This document shows, piece after piece, positions 51,921 through 61,389 of a DNA stretch of 64,000 nucleotides. The notes beneath the pieces are model-generated. The model had not been told where the DNA came from. It was given only the letters and a program-made list of their open reading frames with translations, and ran no database searches. The stretch is from Terriglobales bacterium (GTDB taxonomy: Bacteria > Acidobacteriota > Terriglobia > Bryobacterales > Bryobacteraceae): the NCBI GenBank assembly GCA_027485675.1, contig JAIXQP010000041.1, positions 186,001 through 250,000 of the forward strand, in the 5' to 3' direction. A program made the translations under genes and the position numbers. The number at the start of each line of letters is the position of its first letter. Positions within the stretch are counted from its first letter, which is position 1.

Positions 51921-52661
51921 ATGATTCCCCTCGCGTGCCTTCTCGTCCTCGCCGCTCTCCCCCCGCTTGCGGCCGCTGACGACGGCCGCGGACTCGCCGC
52001 CCGCTTCGCCGCCGAGGTCGACCGGCGCGTCGTACTCTCCCCCGCCGTCCAGGAGTTCTACGCAAGCTACCTCACGCCCCTGGCCGAACTCGCCCCGGGT
52101 CAGTTCGTGGCCCTCGTCGACCGCAACCGCAGAGCCCAACTTCTCCTGCTCTACTGGCGCGGCCCCAGCGGGCAGTTTCACTTCATCGGCGCCTCGCCCG
52201 TCTCCACCGGCCACCCCGGCCGCTTCGAATACTTCCTCTCTCCCCTCGGTGTCTTCGAACACTCCCTGGCCAACCCGGATTACCGCGCCGAAGGAACCAA
52301 AAACGAATTCGGCATTCGCGGCTACGGCGTCAAAGGAATGCGGGTTTACGACTTCGGCTGGATCCGCGCGAACAAAGGCTGGGGCGACCAGCGGGAAAGC
52401 GTGCTCCGCCTCCAGATGCACGCCACCGACCCCGACTACCTCGAAAGCCGTCTCGGCACGGCCCAATCGAAAGGCTGCATCCGCATCTCCGCCACGCTCA
52501 ACGTCTTCTTTGATCGCTACGGCATTCTCGACGCCGACTATCAACGCGCCGTCAACGAAGGCAACCGCCCGTGGGTCCTTCGCCCCGAGTGGAGCCCCAC
52601 GCCCTGGGCGGGCCGCTACCTCGTCATCATCGATAGCTCGGGCGTCTGGCTTACTCCCTGA
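51921..52661 (+). CDS. L,D-transpeptidase (YkuD family)
   Basis: A 246-aa exported protein with a signal peptide (about 1-18). The YkuD motif HxD...S-x-G-C-x-R appears as HATDPDY ... SKGCIRIS, with the catalytic Cys in GCIR; the residue before Gly is Lys where His is most common. It would form 3-3 or Braun-lipoprotein-type cross-links in peptidoglycan. It follows the TPR gene by 103 nt and converges on the PhyH gene. Confidence 0.86.
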   Translation: MIPLACLLVLAALPPLAAADDGRGLAARFAAEVDRRVVLSPAVQEFYASYLTPLAELAPGQFVALVDRNRRAQLLLLYWRGPSGQFHFIGASPVSTGHPGRFEYFLSPLGVFEHSLANPDYRAEGTKNEFGIRGYGVKGMRVYDFGWIRANKGWGDQRESVLRLQMHATDPDYLESRLGTAQSKGCIRISATLNVFFDRYGILDADYQRAVNEGNRPWVLRPEWSPTPWAGRYLVIIDSSGVWLTP

Positions 52662-53439
52662 AACTGTTCAACGTCATCGTCCCCAAGCTCGCCACCCCCT
52701 CTGGCCGCGTGCCCGGCTGGTGATGCAGGAAGAACTCGTCCGCCACGGCGAAAACCTCCACGACGGCGGGTTGCCGCGGATTCACAACGTGGTAATACCG
52801 CATCGGTTCCTCTCGCGGCACGAGCACCGCGGTCGCCGCCACGCGCTCCGCCCCGCTCGCGTTCGGCGGGGAGCAGTGGAATAGCCGGTTGTCGAACACC
52901 ATGGCTTCGCCCGCCCGCATCGGAATCGTATCCAGACACTCCATCAATTCGGCCGCCAACTCGGGGTAGGCGAAAGGAGTGCAGGCCGCCCGGGGTGCAT
53001 GCGGGAAGGCGTGCGTCCCCGGCACCACCTGCAGGCATCCGTTCTCCCGGTCGACGTCCTGCAGCGGTATCCACAGCCCCAAAGAGTGCGACCTCTCTTC
53101 ATCCACAAACGCCCAATCCTGGTGCAGCGGCACGGCGCTGTCCCAGGGGCCGGCCGGCTTTATGGCGAATGTACAGAAGGCCACCCGGTACTCCGGCAGC
53201 AGCCTCCCCGCCGCCGGGGCGATCGTCCGCCGGATGGCGGCGTCCACGGCGGCGCGGTGGCCGCGGTCCGGGCTCAGAATCGTGGAGGTGAATCCGGCAG
53301 CGGGCCGCTGCGCCAGGCTCTGGTAACTCTGGCGCAACGCCGCAAGCGCCTCCGGCTCCAGAAACGGGACAACCGCAAAGCCGTCCGCCGAGAGCCACGC
53401 CGCCATCGTGGGCGGCAAATCCGTTGAGTACAGTCGCAT
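52651..53439 (-). CDS. Phytanoyl-CoA dioxygenase (PhyH) family Fe(II)/2-oxoglutarate oxygenase
   Basis: A 262-aa oxygenase. The Fe(II) triad is visible as H-x-D in LHQDWAFVDE and the distal His in FHCSPPN, with the Arg for 2-oxoglutarate in the AERVA stretch. Secondary-metabolite hydroxylases and halogenases belong to this family. It is separated from the methyltransferase/P450 operon only by the small kinase, so it may tailor the same product, but it is on its own transcript. Confidence 0.85.
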   Translation of the reverse strand: MRLYSTDLPPTMAAWLSADGFAVVPFLEPEALAALRQSYQSLAQRPAAGFTSTILSPDRGHRAAVDAAIRRTIAPAAGRLLPEYRVAFCTFAIKPAGPWDSAVPLHQDWAFVDEERSHSLGLWIPLQDVDRENGCLQVVPGTHAFPHAPRAACTPFAYPELAAELMECLDTIPMRAGEAMVFDNRLFHCSPPNASGAERVAATAVLVPREEPMRYYHVVNPRQPAVVEVFAVADEFFLHHQPGTRPEGVASLGTMTLNSFRE

Positions 53440-54271
53440 GGTGTGGTACCTCTTGATCTACGTGTTGTCTACCCTCGCAGGCCGGTTCGAACTGCGCGAA
53501 ACGATCGGCCAAGGGACGTTCGCGCAAGTGTGGCGCGCTCAGGATCTCGAAACCGGCCATCCCGTGGCCTTGAAACTCTTTCACTCCGCCCCGGACGTTG
53601 CGGCCAACGTTCTGAACGAAGTGGCCGCCGGCCTGCGCATGCCGCCCCATCCCAACGTCGTGCGTGCCCTGGCTTTTTTCGAGTCCGGCGAGTCCCCCTG
53701 CCTGGTGCTCGACTACGTTCCCGGCTCGAACCTGGCCGAGTGGCTGGCCCGGCAGCCCGCGCCCGGCCCGGACTCCGCTCCGGACCGGCTGGTGGTGCTG
53801 CGGGATCTGCTGCGGGGCCTGGCCCATGCGCACGCCAGTGGCGTCGCCCATCGCGATCTCAGCTTCGGCAATGTTCTCGTCGCCGCCGCCCCCCTGCGCG
53901 CCTGCCTCACGGACTTCGGCGGAGCCTGGTTCGCCGATCCCCCCGCCGGGCTCGCGGACGCCTTCCGCCAGGACGTCTACGCCTTTGCCGTTCTCGCCTA
54001 TCTCACGCTCTCCGGCCGCCATCCGCTCACGGACGATTGGCAATCCCAACACTCCTCCGAGTGGTCCGGCGCCACCGGCGCCCACGCCTCGCTCCCGCGC
54101 CGCCGCCTCGTCGATCTCGCGCCTTGGCTCGCGTCTCATCCCCATCTCCCGGCGCTCTCCTCCGTGCTCGGGAGCTGCGTGGCGGCGGACCCCGGCCAGC
54201 GTCCCTCCTCGGCCGTTGCCTTGGCCGCCGCCTGGGACGCCGCCGGCTTCTCCGCCTCCACCAGTAAGTAG
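53438..54271 (+). CDS. Small Ser/Thr protein kinase
   Basis: A 277-aa kinase from the ATG 53438 (start uncertain; it overlaps the divergent PhyH start). The glycine loop GQGTFAQVW, VAL-K (VALKLF), catalytic HRDLSFGNVL and TDFGG are all present, so it should be active. It ends right after the kinase domain with no membrane helix or sensor domain, unusual for bacterial PknB-like kinases. Its 3' 136 nt overlap the convergent methyltransferase gene. The target is unknown. Confidence 0.83.
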   Translation: MVWYLLIYVLSTLAGRFELRETIGQGTFAQVWRAQDLETGHPVALKLFHSAPDVAANVLNEVAAGLRMPPHPNVVRALAFFESGESPCLVLDYVPGSNLAEWLARQPAPGPDSAPDRLVVLRDLLRGLAHAHASGVAHRDLSFGNVLVAAAPLRACLTDFGGAWFADPPAGLADAFRQDVYAFAVLAYLTLSGRHPLTDDWQSQHSSEWSGATGAHASLPRRRLVDLAPWLASHPHLPALSSVLGSCVAADPGQRPSSAVALAAAWDAAGFSASTSK

Positions 54272-54981
54272 TGACGCACCGTGTCCGTCAGCATGCGGCG
54301 CCAAAACTCCCGTTCCCGGCCCCCGGCCATCGCGTGCTGGCGTTTGCAGAACGGCGTCCAGCTCCACGCCGTCACGTCCCGCAGGCGTGGCGGTCCAAAG
54401 CCCGCCGCCGTTAACTCCGCCGCGTACTCCTCCATCGTGCGGATCCGGTTCTCCTCCGGCGTCATCCATTCGCCCAGATGGCCCGCCTCGGCAAAGAGAA
54501 TGTCCGCCATCCGCAGCCTGCCCCCGGGCCGCAGCAGGCGGCAGGCCTCGCCCAGGAACTCGGCCCGCGTTCGAAAGTGGAAGGCCGCCTCAATCGAAAT
54601 CACGGTGTCGAACGACTCCGGCCGCAGCGCCGTCCGCGCCGCGTCCATCACTGCGAAGCGCGCCCCCGGCGCCCGTCTTCTCGCCTCGTCGATCTGCCGT
54701 TCCGAGAGGTTGATGCCGATCACGCTCGCCTCCGGCGCCCCGTCCTGCAGCCAATGCGCCGGCGCGCCCGTGCCGCATCCGGCGTCCAGCCAGCGTTCGC
54801 CGGCCCGCGGCCGCCGGCCCGCCACGCGGCGCACCAGTTCCCCGCACGCCTCCGGCTGCTCGGCGATCTCCGCCCCCCAATAGCCCACGTTGAAGTACCC
54901 GCTGCTGGCATATACCTGCTGCATCCGCGCATCCAGCATGAAGCGGTCGTAGCTCCGCGCAAACTCACCCGCCGTCAGCAT
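54136..54981 (-). CDS. Class I SAM-dependent methyltransferase
   Basis: A 281-aa methyltransferase. Motif I is WLDAGCGTGAPAHWL, motif II VIGINLSERQIDEA, and FDTVISIEAAFHF follows, matching the methyltransferase_11/25 group found in natural-product clusters (for example UbiE/sterol-methyltransferase-like). The C-terminal ~35 residues (after YLLVEAE) are Ala/Glu-rich and overlap the convergent kinase gene. It is the last gene of the candidate biosynthetic operon and overlaps the P450 stop by 17 nt. Confidence 0.85.
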   Translation of the reverse strand: MLTAGEFARSYDRFMLDARMQQVYASSGYFNVGYWGAEIAEQPEACGELVRRVAGRRPRAGERWLDAGCGTGAPAHWLQDGAPEASVIGINLSERQIDEARRRAPGARFAVMDAARTALRPESFDTVISIEAAFHFRTRAEFLGEACRLLRPGGRLRMADILFAEAGHLGEWMTPEENRIRTMEEYAAELTAAGFGPPRLRDVTAWSWTPFCKRQHAMAGGREREFWRRMLTDTVRHYLLVEAEKPAASQAAAKATAEEGRWPGSAATQLPSTEESAGRWG

Positions 54982-56152
54982 GCCGCTCTCCTCCCCACCG
55001 CACCGCCAGACTCTCCAATCCCCGCAGTACCGCGGGGCTGCGCCGCCATCGGAATGGCCCGGGCATCATGGGCCGGATCATCCGCCGGGTCAGGGCTTGC
55101 AGCGCAATCTGGCCCTCCAGCCGCGCGATCCCCGCGCCCATGCACTGCAGCGGCCCCGCGCCGAAACTCAGGTGCCGGTTGCGCTCCCTGGTCAGCTCCA
55201 GCGAATCGGGGTTGGCGAACTCCTCCGCATCCCGGTTGGCCGAGCCAACGCCGACCATCACCGGCTCCCCGGCCCGGATCCTCTCCTGCTCCACCATTAC
55301 GTCACTGCGCAGCCGGATCATCGAGAACTGCACCGGACTGTCGAACCGTAGCAACTCCTCCACCGCGGCAGGCAGCATCGCGGGGTGGCTCCGCAACCGC
55401 GCCAGCGCCTCCGGATGCAGCACCAGCGTCCGCACCGCGTTGCCGATAAAGTTCATCATGTTCTCGTGGCTCGCAAAGTGAAAGAACGCGAGAAACGGGA
55501 GCCACTCGGCCTCCTCCGCCTCTCCCACGGCCGATAGGAGATCGTTCTCCGGCGCCCCCTGCTTGCCGGCGACGGCGCGGATCAGAAACTCGGCCAAACG
55601 CTCGACGCGGCTCAGTGCCTCCTCCTCCAGGCGCCCGCCGCCTCCCAACGCCTCCAGCAGGCTGCCTGCCGTGCCGCGGGCCAGTTCGGCGAACTGCGCT
55701 TCGTCCCGGTCCGGAATCCCCAGCAGGTGCGCCGCCGCGCACAGCGTGAACGGCTCCGCGAAATCGTTGACGATGTCCAGGCCCGCTGCGGCTTCCGCCA
55801 GCAACTCCTCCGCCCGCTGCTCCAGCCGCCCGCGCCAGGCCGCCATCGCCCGGGGCGTAAACACCGGCGCCACCAGGCTGCGCAGCCGGCCTCCTTGCCG
55901 GGGATCAAGTTGGCCCAGCCAACTGCCCAGCGCCGCGGCCAGCGGTCCGCCTCCCGGCTGCTCCCAGTGCGCTACCTCCGGACTCTTCAGCAACGCCGCC
56001 GCATCGCGATAGCGCAGCACCACCCAGCTCTGCCTCGCGCTGTCCCAATACACCGGCGTCTCCCGCCGGAGCCGCTCGTAATGCGGATACGGATCCGGCC
56101 GCGCCTCGGCGCCCAGCAGGTCGAAGCTCGGGGCCGCGCTAGGTCCGGCCAT
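54965..56152 (-). CDS. Cytochrome P450
   Basis: A 395-aa soluble P450 starting at ATG 56152. The heme motif is SFGAGPLQCMG with axial Cys337, ExxR is E266-x-x-R269, and PDPYPHYERLR at the N terminus is typical of bacterial P450s. In the I-helix, where the proton-delivery motif AGxE/D-T is expected, it reads FASHENMM, so the Thr is replaced by Asn231. P450cin (CYP176A1) has a comparable Asn. It overlaps the small CxxC gene upstream by 14 nt. Likely function: hydroxylation or cyclisation of the cluster product. Confidence 0.93.
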   Translation of the reverse strand: MAGPSAAPSFDLLGAEARPDPYPHYERLRRETPVYWDSARQSWVVLRYRDAAALLKSPEVAHWEQPGGGPLAAALGSWLGQLDPRQGGRLRSLVAPVFTPRAMAAWRGRLEQRAEELLAEAAAGLDIVNDFAEPFTLCAAAHLLGIPDRDEAQFAELARGTAGSLLEALGGGGRLEEEALSRVERLAEFLIRAVAGKQGAPENDLLSAVGEAEEAEWLPFLAFFHFASHENMMNFIGNAVRTLVLHPEALARLRSHPAMLPAAVEELLRFDSPVQFSMIRLRSDVMVEQERIRAGEPVMVGVGSANRDAEEFANPDSLELTRERNRHLSFGAGPLQCMGAGIARLEGQIALQALTRRMIRPMMPGPFRWRRSPAVLRGLESLAVRWGGERHADGG

Positions 56153-56408
56153 AACGAGGGATCCACGACCACAGCACACAACCAAGCACCGCCGGCACCA
56201 CCGGCCAGCCCGTAATGATCTCGGCTTCCCGGATCAGCGCCAGCTTCCCCTTGCTCTCCGGATGCGCCTGCAGAACCCGCTCGGCTTCGTCCGAACGGAT
56301 GGGTGCCCGCCGAATCGTCGCGAGAGAAAGCACCACCAGGACCCGCGAAATCAGCCGGCACTTGGCGCACGTACCGCGGTAGAGCAGCAGCGGTCGCGGT
56401 CTGTTCAT
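56139..56408 (-). CDS. Small CxxC membrane-associated protein
   Basis: An 89-aa protein starting at the ATG 56408, which overlaps the stop of the prenyltransferase-repeat gene (ATGA). The N terminus LLYRGTCAKCRLISRV has a CxxC pair (C14/C17), reminiscent of DCC/DUF393 thiol-disulfide proteins, and a C-terminal hydrophobic stretch (PVVPAVLGCVLWSWI). It is too short for a firm family. It may be a redox partner or anchor for the P450 just downstream. Confidence 0.6.
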   Translation of the reverse strand: MNRPRPLLLYRGTCAKCRLISRVLVVLSLATIRRAPIRSDEAERVLQAHPESKGKLALIREAEIITGWPVVPAVLGCVLWSWIPRYGRT

Positions 56409-57331
56409 TGCGGCTTCTCCGCGCTGGTCATCGCCAGCATGCGCACCGCGCTCGCCGTCGTGAAGAGATGGTCGGCGTCGGCATACAAAGCTCCCTCCGG
56501 ATGCCGCCAAGGGTCGCGGGCATCGTGGCGGCTCACCCGCAGGATGGGCGTCCCGGGCCAACTGCCGTCGTCGCTCTGCAGCGCCACCAACTCCTCCGCC
56601 AGCCTGCTGGTCCCCGCGCCCGCGCCCCAACTCAGCCAGGCGGTCCCCAGTAGATAGGCCAGGTCGAAGGCCGAGCGGACCGTCCGGGATTCCTCCTCCG
56701 AAACCACCACGGCGGTCTCCGCTCCGGCCTCCAACTCCCGCAGTAACGCGGCATTCAGAAAGGTGCTGTAGTGCCGCGTGCGCCACCAGTAAGCCGGCCA
56801 GGTGCCGTCCGTCTCCCGGCTCCTGTGCAGGCACGCCACGACCGCCGTCCGCAGGCGGGCCTGCTCCTCCGCCGCGAGCGCCCGGTAAGCCATCGGCGTC
56901 ACGTCCGGATGCGCCATGCCCCACTGGTCCGGACGCTCATACGTGGCAAAGCCTCCGTTCGCGCGCCATCGCGCCCGCAGCCACTCCTCATCCCGTCGGG
57001 CCACCGGCTCGCCCAACTCCCGGAGCAGCAGGAGCGCGTAGGCCGTCGAATCGGCGTCCGGACCGGTCTTCTCGTTGAAGCCCCAACCCGCGGCGTAGGG
57101 GCGGTTCCTCCGCAGCCATCGTCCAGCGCCACCGGCCGCCTCCGCCGCGCGGGGCAGGGAACCGGTCGAGCGCGCAGCCTCCAGCAGCATGACCCCCGTG
57201 TAAGCCGTCACCCACGCGCCGGACCGGCCCACCGGTAAGGCGAACTCCTCCCAATGGCCGTCGCCGTGTTGCCGCGCGGTGACATAGGCCACGCCTCGCT
57301 CAATCGCCCGCTGCACCGTGGGGTTCCTCAT
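56405..57331 (-). CDS. Terpenoid-cyclase/prenyltransferase-repeat protein
   Basis: A 308-aa alpha-barrel protein of the squalene-hopene cyclase/prenyltransferase (PF13243/PF00432-like) fold, half the size of a full triterpene cyclase. QW-like repeats are RQHGDGHWEEF (20-30) and LQSDDGSWPG near the C terminus. DADST (92-96, PDADSTAYALL) occupies the place where class II terpene cyclases carry the DxDD acid. Whether it is a catalyst or a binding scaffold is not clear from sequence. It is coupled by ATGA overlaps to the ABBA-like gene upstream and the CxxC gene downstream. Confidence 0.78.
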   Translation of the reverse strand: MRNPTVQRAIERGVAYVTARQHGDGHWEEFALPVGRSGAWVTAYTGVMLLEAARSTGSLPRAAEAAGGAGRWLRRNRPYAAGWGFNEKTGPDADSTAYALLLLRELGEPVARRDEEWLRARWRANGGFATYERPDQWGMAHPDVTPMAYRALAAEEQARLRTAVVACLHRSRETDGTWPAYWWRTRHYSTFLNAALLRELEAGAETAVVVSEEESRTVRSAFDLAYLLGTAWLSWGAGAGTSRLAEELVALQSDDGSWPGTPILRVSRHDARDPWRHPEGALYADADHLFTTASAVRMLAMTSAEKPQ

Positions 57332-58290
57332 GCCGCTGCTGCCTTCAGATACACGTTCGCCCTCACCCCGCCGTGGTCGCCCACGCCGACTCCGAGAAAC
57401 GCGACCTCGGCCTCGCCCCGCTCCACGCCCCGCGCCACCGCCTCATCCCGCATCACTCCCTTCCGCAGCATCGCCGCCCACTCTTTTGCCGTGCGGCTCA
57501 GGCAGTGCGCGCAAAAATCCAGCTTCACGTCGGCCGGGCTCCCATCCGCCATTCGGTAGGACGCGCTCATCACCAGCCCCGACAGCGGCACTCCATCCCC
57601 CTCATTCACCGCTTCCGCCAGCCGGCCGGCCTCCGCATTCCAGAACGGGGGCAGTCCCATGGTGGAGAAGGTTGCCTGCTCCCGCAGCCGCCAGTAAAGC
57701 TTCACCCGCGCGTTCCGGAGCCCGCTCCCTTCTATGCCGATACTCGCCACCTGCGCCACCGGTTCCAGCCGATCCACTACGGCCACCGCCGCCGCCGGGT
57801 CTGGCAGGGCGGCCCGCAGCCACCGCCGCACATCCGCCCAGCGTTCCGCGGCCACGCCCCAGCGCAGATTCGCATAGACCGCCGCGCCCCCCTCCAACCC
57901 GCCCGCTAACCAGAGCGTTCCGGCCTCCAGCCCCTGCGCGGGAACCGCCATCGCGAGCATGGTCCCACACACCTCGCTCAGCTCCGCCGAGCGCGTGGCC
58001 TGCAACGTCAAAGCCAACGCCTGCCGGGCCAGCCCCAGCCGGGTCTCCCCCGGCCGCACCCCCGCGGCGGGATCGCCCAGCAACCGCCACCGGCGCCCCT
58101 GCTCGCCGTACGTTACGCACACTTGCAGGGGAGAACCGTCGTTGTTCAGCGCCGAATCCTGCGGCTTGCGCTGCGCCACCGGGAAGACGCTCGCCAGCAG
58201 GACTTCACTGAGCCGGGCCACCCGTTCGGTGGCTCCGCTCAGCCGTCCCGCCCACTGCAAAAGAGCGTCTTCCTGGGGCGTTAGCATCAT
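57328..58290 (-). CDS. Putative aromatic prenyltransferase (ABBA/DMATS-like)
   Basis: A 320-aa protein whose strand pattern matches dimethylallyltryptophan-synthase-like barrels: NNDGSPLQVCVTYGE (residues 49-63) aligns with the DGxPxE strand of DMATS enzymes, ARVKLYW (194-200) has the R-x-K-x-Y diphosphate-binding motif, and AAVYANL, MSASYRM and RANVYLK supply the other tyrosine-shield-like strands. The Glu that usually deprotonates the aromatic substrate is Gln56 here. A CxxC pair (C260/C263) is extra. This is motif reading, so I assign it as likely rather than certain. If correct, it would attach an isoprenyl group to an aromatic substrate. Confidence 0.58.
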   Translation of the reverse strand: MMLTPQEDALLQWAGRLSGATERVARLSEVLLASVFPVAQRKPQDSALNNDGSPLQVCVTYGEQGRRWRLLGDPAAGVRPGETRLGLARQALALTLQATRSAELSEVCGTMLAMAVPAQGLEAGTLWLAGGLEGGAAVYANLRWGVAAERWADVRRWLRAALPDPAAAVAVVDRLEPVAQVASIGIEGSGLRNARVKLYWRLREQATFSTMGLPPFWNAEAGRLAEAVNEGDGVPLSGLVMSASYRMADGSPADVKLDFCAHCLSRTAKEWAAMLRKGVMRDEAVARGVERGEAEVAFLGVGVGDHGGVRANVYLKAAAA

Positions 58291-58952
58291 GCGTTCGGGT
58301 CCTGCGTGATCGTCACTTCACCCGGCCGGCCCGGCGCGCCCGGAACTCCCGGAGCGCCCGGCGAAGCCGGATTGCCCTGCGCCGCCCGCGCCCCGCTGCC
58401 GCCCGTGCGTCCGCCCAAACCGCCCTGGCCGGACGCGCCGCCGATGCCGCCGGTACCTCCCGCCCCCAGTTCGGAGATCCCCGCGAAATCGCCGTCCACC
58501 AGATTACGGTACAGCACGATAATGTCGCCGCCGTCGGCGCCCTTGCCGCCGTTACCGCCGTCGCCGCCGGGTCCGGCATTGCCGCCCCGCGCTCCGCCCG
58601 CCCCGTTCTCGCAACCGCTGCCGCTGCCACCATCTCCGCCCGGCCCGCCGTTTCCGCCGGCCCCGCCGCTTCCTCCGTTCCCGCCCCGGCCGCCCCGGTT
58701 CGTCGCCCGGATGTTGCCGATCAGGTCGCGCATCCGGATCGTCAGATCGAGGGGCGCCGGCGCGTTTCCACCGTCCACCCCGCGCGATCCGCCGGTGCCG
58801 TTGCCTCCCGGAGTGCCCACGCTCGGCGAGCTATCGCCGTACCAGTGGCACCGCGCCGCTTCTCCCGTGGCGCCCGCTCCGCCGGTTCCTCCGGCTGCGC
58901 CGGCCGAGCCGTTCTGGCCACTGGCCGATTCCATCTCAATGTCGTATGCCAT
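58287..58952 (-). CDS. Glycine-rich repeat protein
   Basis: A 221-aa protein dominated by GGxGG/GNGG runs (about 10-35, 50-60, 88-140 and 165-205), interrupted by short beta-like segments (PLDLTIRMRDLIGNIRA, DIIVLYRNLVDGDF) and ending with collagen-like GAPG repeats and a beta strand. Two cysteines are present (CHWYG, GCENG). No signal peptide is seen. It resembles glycine-rich shell/scaffold or substrate-like proteins, and I cannot assign a family. It overlaps the ABBA-like gene by 4 nt, so it is a true member of the operon. Confidence 0.72.
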   Translation of the reverse strand: MAYDIEMESASGQNGSAGAAGGTGGAGATGEAARCHWYGDSSPSVGTPGGNGTGGSRGVDGGNAPAPLDLTIRMRDLIGNIRATNRGGRGGNGGSGGAGGNGGPGGDGGSGSGCENGAGGARGGNAGPGGDGGNGGKGADGGDIIVLYRNLVDGDFAGISELGAGGTGGIGGASGQGGLGGRTGGSGARAAQGNPASPGAPGVPGAPGRPGEVTITQDPNA

Positions 58953-58979
58953 CTCATTTCCCTCCGTTGCTCTCGGTGC

Positions 58980-59729
58980 CTACTCAGAAAAAATCGGCCG
59001 GAATGTGCCGATCGTCAAATTGCCGGCCGTGGTCAGGCCGGGCCGTTTCCGCGGCTTCGTCATCTTGGTGCAGCTGATCGTCAAATGCCCTTGTGAACGG
59101 ATGACGCCGCCGTCTTCGATCTCAATCTCATAGGCCACCAGAGCGTTCACTCCCGGCCCGAACTGCAGCACCGAACCCGCCGCCACCGTGATGCTCGGCA
59201 ACGCGAACACCGGGATGATGATCTGGCCAATCGTGGCTTCAATCAGCGGCCGGTAGCTGCTCACGAGCGTCGAGTTGCCCCGGACGTACGCCCGCGCCGC
59301 CATCCGGATGTTCTCCACCGCTTCCGCGTCGAGCTGCGCGAGCGAACTCGGATCAAACTGGGCCGGCGCGTCGTCATCGCTCCGCCCCGGCGACGCCACA
59401 AACGCTTGTCCCGCGTCCCGGCTCACCGTGATCGGGTTCAAGCCCGCCCCCGGACTCACCGCGATCCGCGAAGGCAGCTTCACCTGTGTGGAGAGCGTCT
59501 TCGCCACCCGGTCGTCCAGTCCGACCATCCGCTTCACCGCGGCAATATCTTTCGTCTTTACGACGAACGGTTGGCGCGCACTTTGAAACTTCGGGCCGTA
59601 GCCCAATTTCACCGCCCCGCTCACCGTCAGCGGCTCCTGCAGCGCCGACATATCCATGCCGAATATCCGTAAACGGCTTTCAAAGTCCTGTCTATCCTGT
59701 GGGGATAGCGCATCCAGATTGACTGGCAT
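58980..59729 (-). CDS. Hypothetical protein, first gene of the candidate biosynthetic operon
   Basis: A 249-aa protein I do not recognise. The N terminus LSPQDRQDFESRLRIFGMDMSA is helical, and the C-terminal part is beta-rich (IIPVFALPSITVAAGSVLQFG, ALVAYEIEIEDGGVIRSQG, HLTISC), suggesting a beta-helix or jelly-roll. No signal peptide is seen. A strong ribosome site (GGAGG) lies just before its ATG. The downstream glycine-rich gene starts 27 nt later. Confidence 0.68.
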   Translation of the reverse strand: MPVNLDALSPQDRQDFESRLRIFGMDMSALQEPLTVSGAVKLGYGPKFQSARQPFVVKTKDIAAVKRMVGLDDRVAKTLSTQVKLPSRIAVSPGAGLNPITVSRDAGQAFVASPGRSDDDAPAQFDPSSLAQLDAEAVENIRMAARAYVRGNSTLVSSYRPLIEATIGQIIIPVFALPSITVAAGSVLQFGPGVNALVAYEIEIEDGGVIRSQGHLTISCTKMTKPRKRPGLTTAGNLTIGTFRPIFSE

Positions 59730-60264: not shown

Positions 60265-61389
60265 ATGGCTAAAGTGAACGATGGCAAACGCCGGACGAAA
60301 CAGGCGGACACCGAACCGTTGTGCTCCTGGTTCCGGTCCTCGGACGAAGTCTACACGGGATTCGCCTCCGGCTCCCACTTTGAAATGAAACCGGTGAAGT
60401 ACTCCCCCGTCGGCGGCATGGCGATCTTTGAAGGGGACATCGCCTTGGGTACGGTGGAGGAGATGGAAGAGATCGCCGGCGCCGTGGCCGATCCCTCCGG
60501 CCTCCGGCTGAGCGGCGCCATCGTCTCCGATGGCCGCTTCCGCTGGCCCGGCGCCCTGATCCCCTACACCATCGATCCGGGCCTGTCGGACCCCGAACGT
60601 GTCACCAATGCCATGGCGGTCTGGTCCACTAACACGCCCCTGCGCTTCGTCCCGCGCGATCCCGCCAACCCCGATCACCAGAACTACGTCTCGTTTGAAG
60701 AGCTCGATGGCTGCTGGTCCCAGGTCGGGATGCGCGGCGGCAAGCAGATCGTGTCGCTCGGTCCCACCTGCACCCTCGGCTCTGCCATTCACGAAATCGG
60801 GCACGTCGCCGGCCTCTGGCATGAACAGAGCCGCGAAGATCGCGATCAGAACATTCGCATTCTCTGGGACAACATTCTCGAAGGCCGCGAACACAACTTC
60901 GATCAACACGTCGCCGACGGCGACGACATCGGCCCCTACGATTTCAACTCCATCATGCACTACCCCGCGCTGGCCTTCTCCCGCAACGGTCTGCCCACCA
61001 TCGTCACCATCGGCGGCGAGCCCATCGGCCAGCGCATTCAGCCCAGCGGGCTGGACTTTGCCGCGGTCAATGCCATGTACGCCGCTCCGCCCGCGCCTCC
61101 CGAAAAACCTCCCGCGCCCTCTCCCATCGCCTCCCGCCCGGGTCCCACCGGCAGTGAAACCCTCGGCAGCATTCCGCCCCTTGATACCCGCCGTTGGATC
61201 ACCTCCGATTGGCCCGTCGCCTGGCAGGTGCACTGGACCGTCGTGCCCTCCCCGGCCGGAACCCGCGTGGAGACCACGGTCATTACCGAACGCCAGAGCG
61301 GCGACTTCCTGCGCTATTACATCGGTGTCCGCAACCTGAGCGAAAGCACTGTCACCATTGACGCCCGCTTCGCCGTGGTGGGTGCCTGA
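60265..61389 (+). CDS. Astacin-family (M12A) zinc metalloprotease without signal peptide
   Basis: A 374-aa protein. The astacin zinc motif HExxHxxGxxH is HEIGHVAGLWHEQSR (H176, H180, H186; E177 catalytic) and the Met-turn is SIMHYP (M231, Y233). Cys150 and Cys169 could form a disulfide. The N-terminal ~90 residues may be a propeptide. No Sec or Tat signal is visible at the ATG, unusual for astacins, which are normally secreted. A C-terminal Pro-rich linker (about 274-300) joins a beta domain. The next gene overlaps its stop by 1 nt. Confidence 0.9.
   Translation: MAKVNDGKRRTKQADTEPLCSWFRSSDEVYTGFASGSHFEMKPVKYSPVGGMAIFEGDIALGTVEEMEEIAGAVADPSGLRLSGAIVSDGRFRWPGALIPYTIDPGLSDPERVTNAMAVWSTNTPLRFVPRDPANPDHQNYVSFEELDGCWSQVGMRGGKQIVSLGPTCTLGSAIHEIGHVAGLWHEQSREDRDQNIRILWDNILEGREHNFDQHVADGDDIGPYDFNSIMHYPALAFSRNGLPTIVTIGGEPIGQRIQPSGLDFAAVNAMYAAPPAPPEKPPAPSPIASRPGPTGSETLGSIPPLDTRRWITSDWPVAWQVHWTVVPSPAGTRVETTVITERQSGDFLRYYIGVRNLSESTVTIDARFAVVGA

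Follow-up and report, generated by a model that had tools for sequence, protein, structure and literature searches.

In a 64,000-nucleotide window of a Terriglobales bacterium genome (contig JAIXQP010000041.1, positions 186,001 to 250,000), we propose that an operon of seven coding genes, named A-G here (54136-59729, minus strand), makes a terpenoid-modified protein. Under this proposal, to which we assign a probability of roughly 0.6, the aromatic prenyltransferase C would transfer a prenyl chain to the indole of Trp37, the only tryptophan of the glycine-rich protein B. The terpene cyclase D would then protonate and cyclize the chain while it is attached to B, and a neighboring PhyH-type oxygenase and the cytochrome P450 F would oxidize, and the methyltransferase G methylate, the cyclized terpenoid. 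The small CxxC protein E would probably govern the thiol state of the cysteines flanking the tryptophan loop, and A would serve as a structural partner of B. We infer B as the acceptor and Trp37 as the site from a Cys-x-Trp motif that is invariant in the B proteins encoded beside C genes; the order of the steps is likewise a proposal.

Prenyltransferase C and terpene cyclase D

Relatives of C are hard to reach from its own sequence. A single-sequence search recovered only C itself among 61 relatives, five weak fragments in 396 genomes of the phylum (E value 0.0017-0.0068; four with internal stops and one short), and no match in the genome_contigs, viral_contigs, or plasmids collections or in the PDB. 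Relatives were reached by searching A and D across 257 genomes of the window's order and then inspecting the space between them. The resulting four-row C alignment yielded 16 loci in genome_contigs, of which 13 were new, and with the window there are 22 C loci (alignment A3). The new loci come from Limisphaerales, Burkholderiales, Aquimarina, Kordia, Pedobacter, Marinovum, and Westiellopsis; loci L051-L053 were dropped as repeats of L043, L045, and L044, respectively.

To the PDB, the 22-row profile matched 6zrz (E value 1.9e-10), CymD (3.3e-6), 4yl7 (1.3e-5), and PriB (1.1e-4), and beyond DMATS-type prenyltransferases it matched only two cellobiohydrolases (0.28-0.29). The Pfam model Trp_DMAT matched 4 of the 22 members (best E value 7.7e-6), and window C is not among these four. 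In the structure model of window C (predicted local distance difference test score, pLDDT, 89.7; predicted template modeling score, pTM, 0.90), strand pairs alternate with helix pairs. The 50 listed Foldseek matches of this model all belong to the ABBA aromatic prenyltransferases, with 5-DMATS, PriB, AnaPT, and IptA at the head, and the top match is 6zs0 (E value 3.9e-14, TMq 0.74). An earlier reading of this DNA, made from the sequence alone and called the sequence-only reading below, had suspected an ABBA barrel in this 320-amino-acid protein, and the barrel is supported by the family profile, the model, and the fold search. By these three lines, C is a DMATS-type ABBA prenyltransferase, with prenyl transfer as its predicted activity. 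Known acceptors of the DMATS-type family are mostly tryptophan or indole compounds, and a glutamate in these enzymes holds the indole NH. The corresponding position in the C profile alignment is Gln or Glu (P-L/V-Q/E), versus Glu in 6zrz, and it is Gln in window C. No NCBIfam match of window C to a cyanobactin (F-family) prenyltransferase was found (E value up to 1), and none of these enzymes occurs among its 50 listed fold matches.

By family, D is an MstE-type monodomain class II terpene cyclase. Searched with phmmer, it matched 8pak (E value 1.5e-21, over residues 6-300 of 308), 8paj (9.6e-18), MstE (~1e-11 to 2e-11), and 6ij1 (3.8e-11). It scored slightly under the cut-off of the Pfam model SQHop_cyclase_C (24.1 against 26.1 bits) and slightly over that of TED_complement, a related toroid. 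The acid motif reads DADS in the window, and all 20 aligned relatives keep D-x-D. C does not always accompany D: among the 15 genomes that matched D, 6 contain C. Two further candidates for D relatives, L049 and L050, were rejected as full squalene-hopene-type open reading frames (ORFs). At three loci (L040-L042), a C-less D-type cyclase lies near an F-like P450 (E value ~1e-55), a sulfatase, an ABC transporter, and a 729-amino-acid neighbor with an N-terminus that looks, by eye, like that of a peptidase-transporter.

Candidate acceptor B and its probable partner A

B carries Cys35-His36-Trp37. Cys-x-Trp is found in all 19 B proteins encoded beside a C gene, 18 of which have no other tryptophan (the L058 protein has two). 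When 18 B proteins are aligned, only Met1, Cys35, Trp37, and glycines are invariant; the L045 protein, whose frame overruns the expected end, was excluded from this alignment (A5), and a slice of it was used for the tryptophan count. A second cysteine usually follows the tryptophan in the B proteins of Bacteroidota, Marinovum, and Westiellopsis (C-x-W-x3-C), and in those of Bryobacteraceae Cys35 is paired with a cysteine near 113-114. The AlphaFold model of B (pLDDT 90.5, pTM 0.75) places Trp37 in a two-residue turn between short strands (35-36 and 39-40).

As a control, we applied the B profile to the 257 genomes of the order. Nine genomes matched at 1e-12, six with C and three without a match to the C profile (G001, G032, and G618). 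None of the six B-like proteins from these three C-less genomes has Cys-x-Trp. Three of the four B-like proteins from G001 and G032 keep the aligned cysteine, with Ser or Leu at the tryptophan position. The sequence-only reading had named the glycine-rich protein as one possible substrate, and this is the option that fits best, through a motif that is linked to C and absent from the six C-less proteins. The B-like glycine-rich proteins of C-less genomes also occur in tandem pairs (L108, L109, L046).

A belongs to a family of its own (alignment A6), with profile matches in 16 of the 22 C loci, and is a probable structural partner of B. In Pedobacter and in genomes that lack C, B may be fused to an A-like module, at scores of 4-9 bits that amount to a hint only.

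Several observations weigh against the proposal. Three of the 22 loci (L033-L035) have C and D and no B, and four (L043-L045 and L054) have B and C but, within the DNA fetched, no cyclase. Neither partner is therefore indispensable; for L043-L045, the D search of the order gave no match in their genomes. Two of the six C-less B-like proteins, those of G618, carry a tryptophan near a cysteine in the same region, in another order. The contrast between C-linked and C-less proteins is a comparison of classes and not a blind test, because C-linked B proteins had gone into the profile used to detect the B family. The 19 instances of Cys-x-Trp also represent fewer than 19 independent cases, since close pairs are common among the 22 loci. 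The best Foldseek matches of B, the springtail antifreeze helical-bundle proteins 7jjv and 3bog (E value 2.1e-7), are not a shown common fold because their TM-scores are 0.12-0.39. Finally, the proposal leaves the export of A and B without explanation.

Gene organization and predicted tailoring enzymes

The sequence-only reading had described seven minus-strand genes, and all seven are present as coding genes, each with a third-position guanine-cytosine content above that of both other codon positions (Table 1). It had also counted six of seven junctions as overlapping, four by ATGA; we instead count six junctions, of which five overlap, three by ATGA (B/C, C/D, and D/E) and two by longer stretches (14 nucleotides at E/F and 17 at F/G). 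The sole non-overlapping junction is the 27-nucleotide gap between A and B. The operon grouping is more than chance because the same genes cluster in relatives of several phyla. The earlier calls of a prenyltransferase, a cyclase fold, a CxxC protein, a P450, and a methyltransferase all held. No Pfam or NCBIfam model matched A, B, C, or E (E value up to 1).

Table 1. Features of the operon and the linked oxygenase gene, in window coordinates
Feature	Position	Strand	Description
Gene A	58980..59729	(-)	249 aa; new family; beta-rich C-terminal half
Gene B	58287..58952	(-)	221 aa; 34% Gly; candidate acceptor
Trp37 codon of B	58842..58844	(-)	proposed modified residue; counted from start 58952
Gene C	57328..58290	(-)	320 aa; DMATS-type ABBA aromatic prenyltransferase (predicted activity)
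Gene D	56405..57331	(-)	308 aa; monodomain class II terpene cyclase by family; DADS acid motif
Gene E	56139..56408	(-)	89 aa; small CxxC protein
Gene F	54965..56152	(-)	395 aa from ATG at 56152; cytochrome P450
Gene G	54136..54981	(-)	281 aa; class I S-adenosylmethionine (SAM) methyltransferase; Methyltransf_11 E value 9.5e-21
PhyH-type 2-oxoglutarate/iron oxygenase	52651..53439	(-)	262 aa; beyond operon coordinates; PhyH E value 1.4e-22
aa, amino acids.

E is probably a thiol-disulfide protein: both CxxC cysteines are invariant in nine aligned relatives, and a MauE protein (E value 5.8e-20) between B and C at L056 fits a thiol role. E may be akin to the DCC/DUF393 proteins. F matches the Pfam p450 model (E value 4.6e-12) and retains the heme cysteine, and its most likely start is the ATG listed in Table 1. 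Its I-helix reads A-S/G-H-E/Q-N in the window, Kordia, and Pedobacter, with Asn at the position where most P450s have Thr. A homologue of G adjoins the P450 in Kordia (E value 1.1e-42) and Pedobacter (2.3e-39). The methyltransferases of L043-L045 and L054 were rejected as G orthologues (4e-5 to 2e-13, against 1e-42 for Kordia).

The oxygenase retains H-x-D and the distal histidine of the PhyH type, and homologues occur in 11 of the 22 C loci (best E value 7.3e-57). Judged by this linkage, the PhyH gene belongs to the gene set, in line with the earlier suggestion that the nearby oxygenase acts with the operon. The companion suggestion for a nearby kinase gained no support: no kinase match at E value <=1e-4 was found in the 22 C loci as fetched, and the kinase was rejected as a member of the set. 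Its ORF (53408-54271, plus strand) lies between the PhyH gene and G; in antisense it overlaps the former at its start and the latter at its 3' end, and it is a partial match to the MAD6 kinase model, below that model's cut-off. Upstream of the operon, on the opposite strand, is an astacin-type metalloprotease gene (60265-61389, plus strand; E value 1.1e-47). Three polyprenyl-synthase genes are present in the window's genome, none of them within the operon. A cholesterol-oxidase-type flavin adenine dinucleotide (FAD) protein in the Westiellopsis cluster (L066:14258-16330, E value 2.4e-106) fits oxidation of a polycyclic terpenoid.

Conservation and spread across phyla

We examined the partners of C at all 22 loci. 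B is present in 19, just upstream of C in each; a class II cyclase is found in 18, and E in 11. The cyclases comprise 14 direct D matches and 4 more distant ones (L059, L061, L062, and L066; two checked with Pfam). Nine of the 14 direct matches are fused to C, in both orders, with D first in one. The F-G pair is shared by the window and Kordia (L060) and recurs downstream in one Pedobacter locus (L090), and the Kordia row consists of A, B, a fused C-D, PhyH, P450, and methyltransferase genes. The gene order is thus kept in relatives from several phyla, and the sequence-only reading of an acidobacterial pathway was too narrow. At L033 (L033:11286-12626), a D-C fusion is followed by genes that look, by eye, like a tyrosinase and a subtilisin. 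At L034, which has no B, the upstream neighbor (252 amino acids from a chosen start; L034:8732-10156) has one tryptophan, in EEWCGC; this protein, found also at the contig start of L035, would represent another family of candidate acceptors encoded ahead of a C-D pair.

C is rare (9 of the 257 genomes of the window's order) and single-copy in 16 of 16 genomes searched. In our tree, window C is nearest Limisphaerales (38% identity) and not the other copies of its own family; its branch is long, however, and no well-supported set contains it. Transfer of C between phyla is therefore likely from the sequences, yet not shown. We also looked for fusions of an ABBA prenyltransferase and a cyclase that resemble NctPC, a precedent discussed below. 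In the Westiellopsis order, 2 of 243 genomes gave a match, Westiellopsis itself and L084, a 640-amino-acid ORF with a C-type domain and no D match. The only match among 149 genomes of Kordia's family was Kordia itself, and the plasmid collection gave one record, with the cyclase part only.

Alternative explanations

The operon might instead make a small-molecule meroterpenoid, with C prenylating free tryptophan or a small aromatic, D cyclizing the chain, the oxygenases and methyltransferase finishing the product, and A and B acting as a storage, display, or delivery scaffold. We consider this unlikely, while giving it serious weight. The nearest solved relatives of C (5-DMATS, PriB, IptA, and CymD) use free tryptophan or small indoles, MstE, a relative of D, serves a small meroterpenoid, and at three of the 22 loci C and D occur in the absence of B. 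Against it stand the single invariant Cys-x-Trp of the C-linked B proteins, missing from the B-like proteins of C-less genomes, and the place of B directly upstream of C; even B-less L034 has an upstream neighbor with a lone tryptophan.

With B as the acceptor, the modified residue might be Cys35 instead of Trp37, the tryptophan being a recognition residue. Cys35 equals Trp37 in invariance, and proteins are usually prenylated on cysteine, according to the review PMC13290415. This is nevertheless very improbable in our view, as C groups with aromatic-amino-acid prenyltransferases, and the B-like proteins of G001 and G032 that keep the aligned cysteine without the tryptophan indicate that Trp, not Cys, is tied to C. 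The CxxC protein E moreover suggests that the B cysteines may be redox partners. Equally doubtful is a role of A and B in a surface or toxin-associated structure, with the terpenoid enzymes serving another target such as a giant SpvB/RHS-like protein. Giant ORFs with a similar N-terminus follow the PhyH or cyclase gene in 7 of the 22 loci, as judged by eye (L059 and L061-L066, for example L063:12751-20841; 1468-2697 amino acids, cut by the locus ends), with weak matches to SpvB (E value 0.0039, below the cut-off) and DUF6443 (2.9e-6). The window operon, Kordia, and the other fetched Bryobacteraceae loci have no giant ORF; B is present there, so a giant protein cannot be the general target. Modification of B at Trp37 remains our preferred explanation.

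Discussion

Only recently were cyclized terpenoids discovered on ribosomal products, in small peptides. The present gene set suggests an entire protein as the carrier, and it predicts the exact residue that would be modified. In its broadest form, to which we give even odds, the proposal describes a new bacterial protein lipidation in which a folded glycine-rich bundle would present a lone, cysteine-framed tryptophan, and the prenyl chain would be cyclized in place, oxidized, and methylated. Several phyla would share this machinery, and further scaffolds in which a single tryptophan is framed by cysteine, such as the L034 neighbor, would use the same enzymes. If true, the few known bacterial protein lipidations would be joined by a lipid anchor that is attached through tryptophan and forms rings. 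Protein families to which Pfam and NCBIfam assign no function (A, B, C, and E) would acquire one, and prenyltransferase-cyclase pairs would become available for making terpene-protein conjugates.

The enzymes resemble known systems to different degrees. With the bacterial DMATS-type tryptophan prenyltransferases (5-DMATS, 6-DMATS, PriB, IptA, and CymD), C shares the fold and a remote sequence kinship, at ~16-18% identity in the top Foldseek alignments; unlike them, it is linked to a protein gene and a cyclase and is without a Pfam or NCBIfam match. D shares sequence similarity and the D-x-D acid motif with the MstE-type cyclases (MstE 6sbb, 8pak, 8paj, and 6ij1), but is shorter (308 against 346-367 amino acids) and sits in a protein-linked operon. 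B has glycine-rich repeats in common with the springtail antifreeze proteins, which does not imply an antifreeze function.

NctPC and isoprenoid-modified ribosomally synthesized and post-translationally modified peptides (RiPPs) are reportedly the subject of Hubrich et al. 2024, Chem 10:3224. As outlined in section 2.3 of the review PMC13290415, NctPC combines an ABBA prenyltransferase and an MstE-like cyclase in one fusion; it places a C20 (geranylgeranyl) chain on a peptide tryptophan and cyclizes that chain. Prenylation and cyclization on a ribosomal product are thus already known from this source, and the sequence-only claim of an undescribed pathway gives way for the prenyltransferase-cyclase pair. 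The literature searched did not describe a glycine-rich acceptor, the tailoring set, or the multi-phylum spread, although the primary NctPC paper may hold a glycine-rich acceptor. The new element looks to be the acceptor, a folded glycine-rich protein. The coupled operon has no room for a short leader-core precursor peptide, and none is evident among the listed ORFs of >=60 amino acids (a check that did not extend to shorter ORFs ahead of A).

The likeness to NctPC is drawn from its description in the review. Like NctPC, the window pairs an ABBA prenyltransferase with an MstE-like cyclase, with tryptophan as the proposed acceptor; its C and D are separate genes, adjacent and ATGA-coupled, whereas NctPC is fused, as are C and D in 9 of the 22 loci. 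Relative to NctPC, the window adds A, E, the PhyH oxygenase, the P450, and the methyltransferase, and where NctPC-type systems modify a short precursor peptide, the candidate acceptor here is a folded, glycine-rich protein of 221 amino acids.

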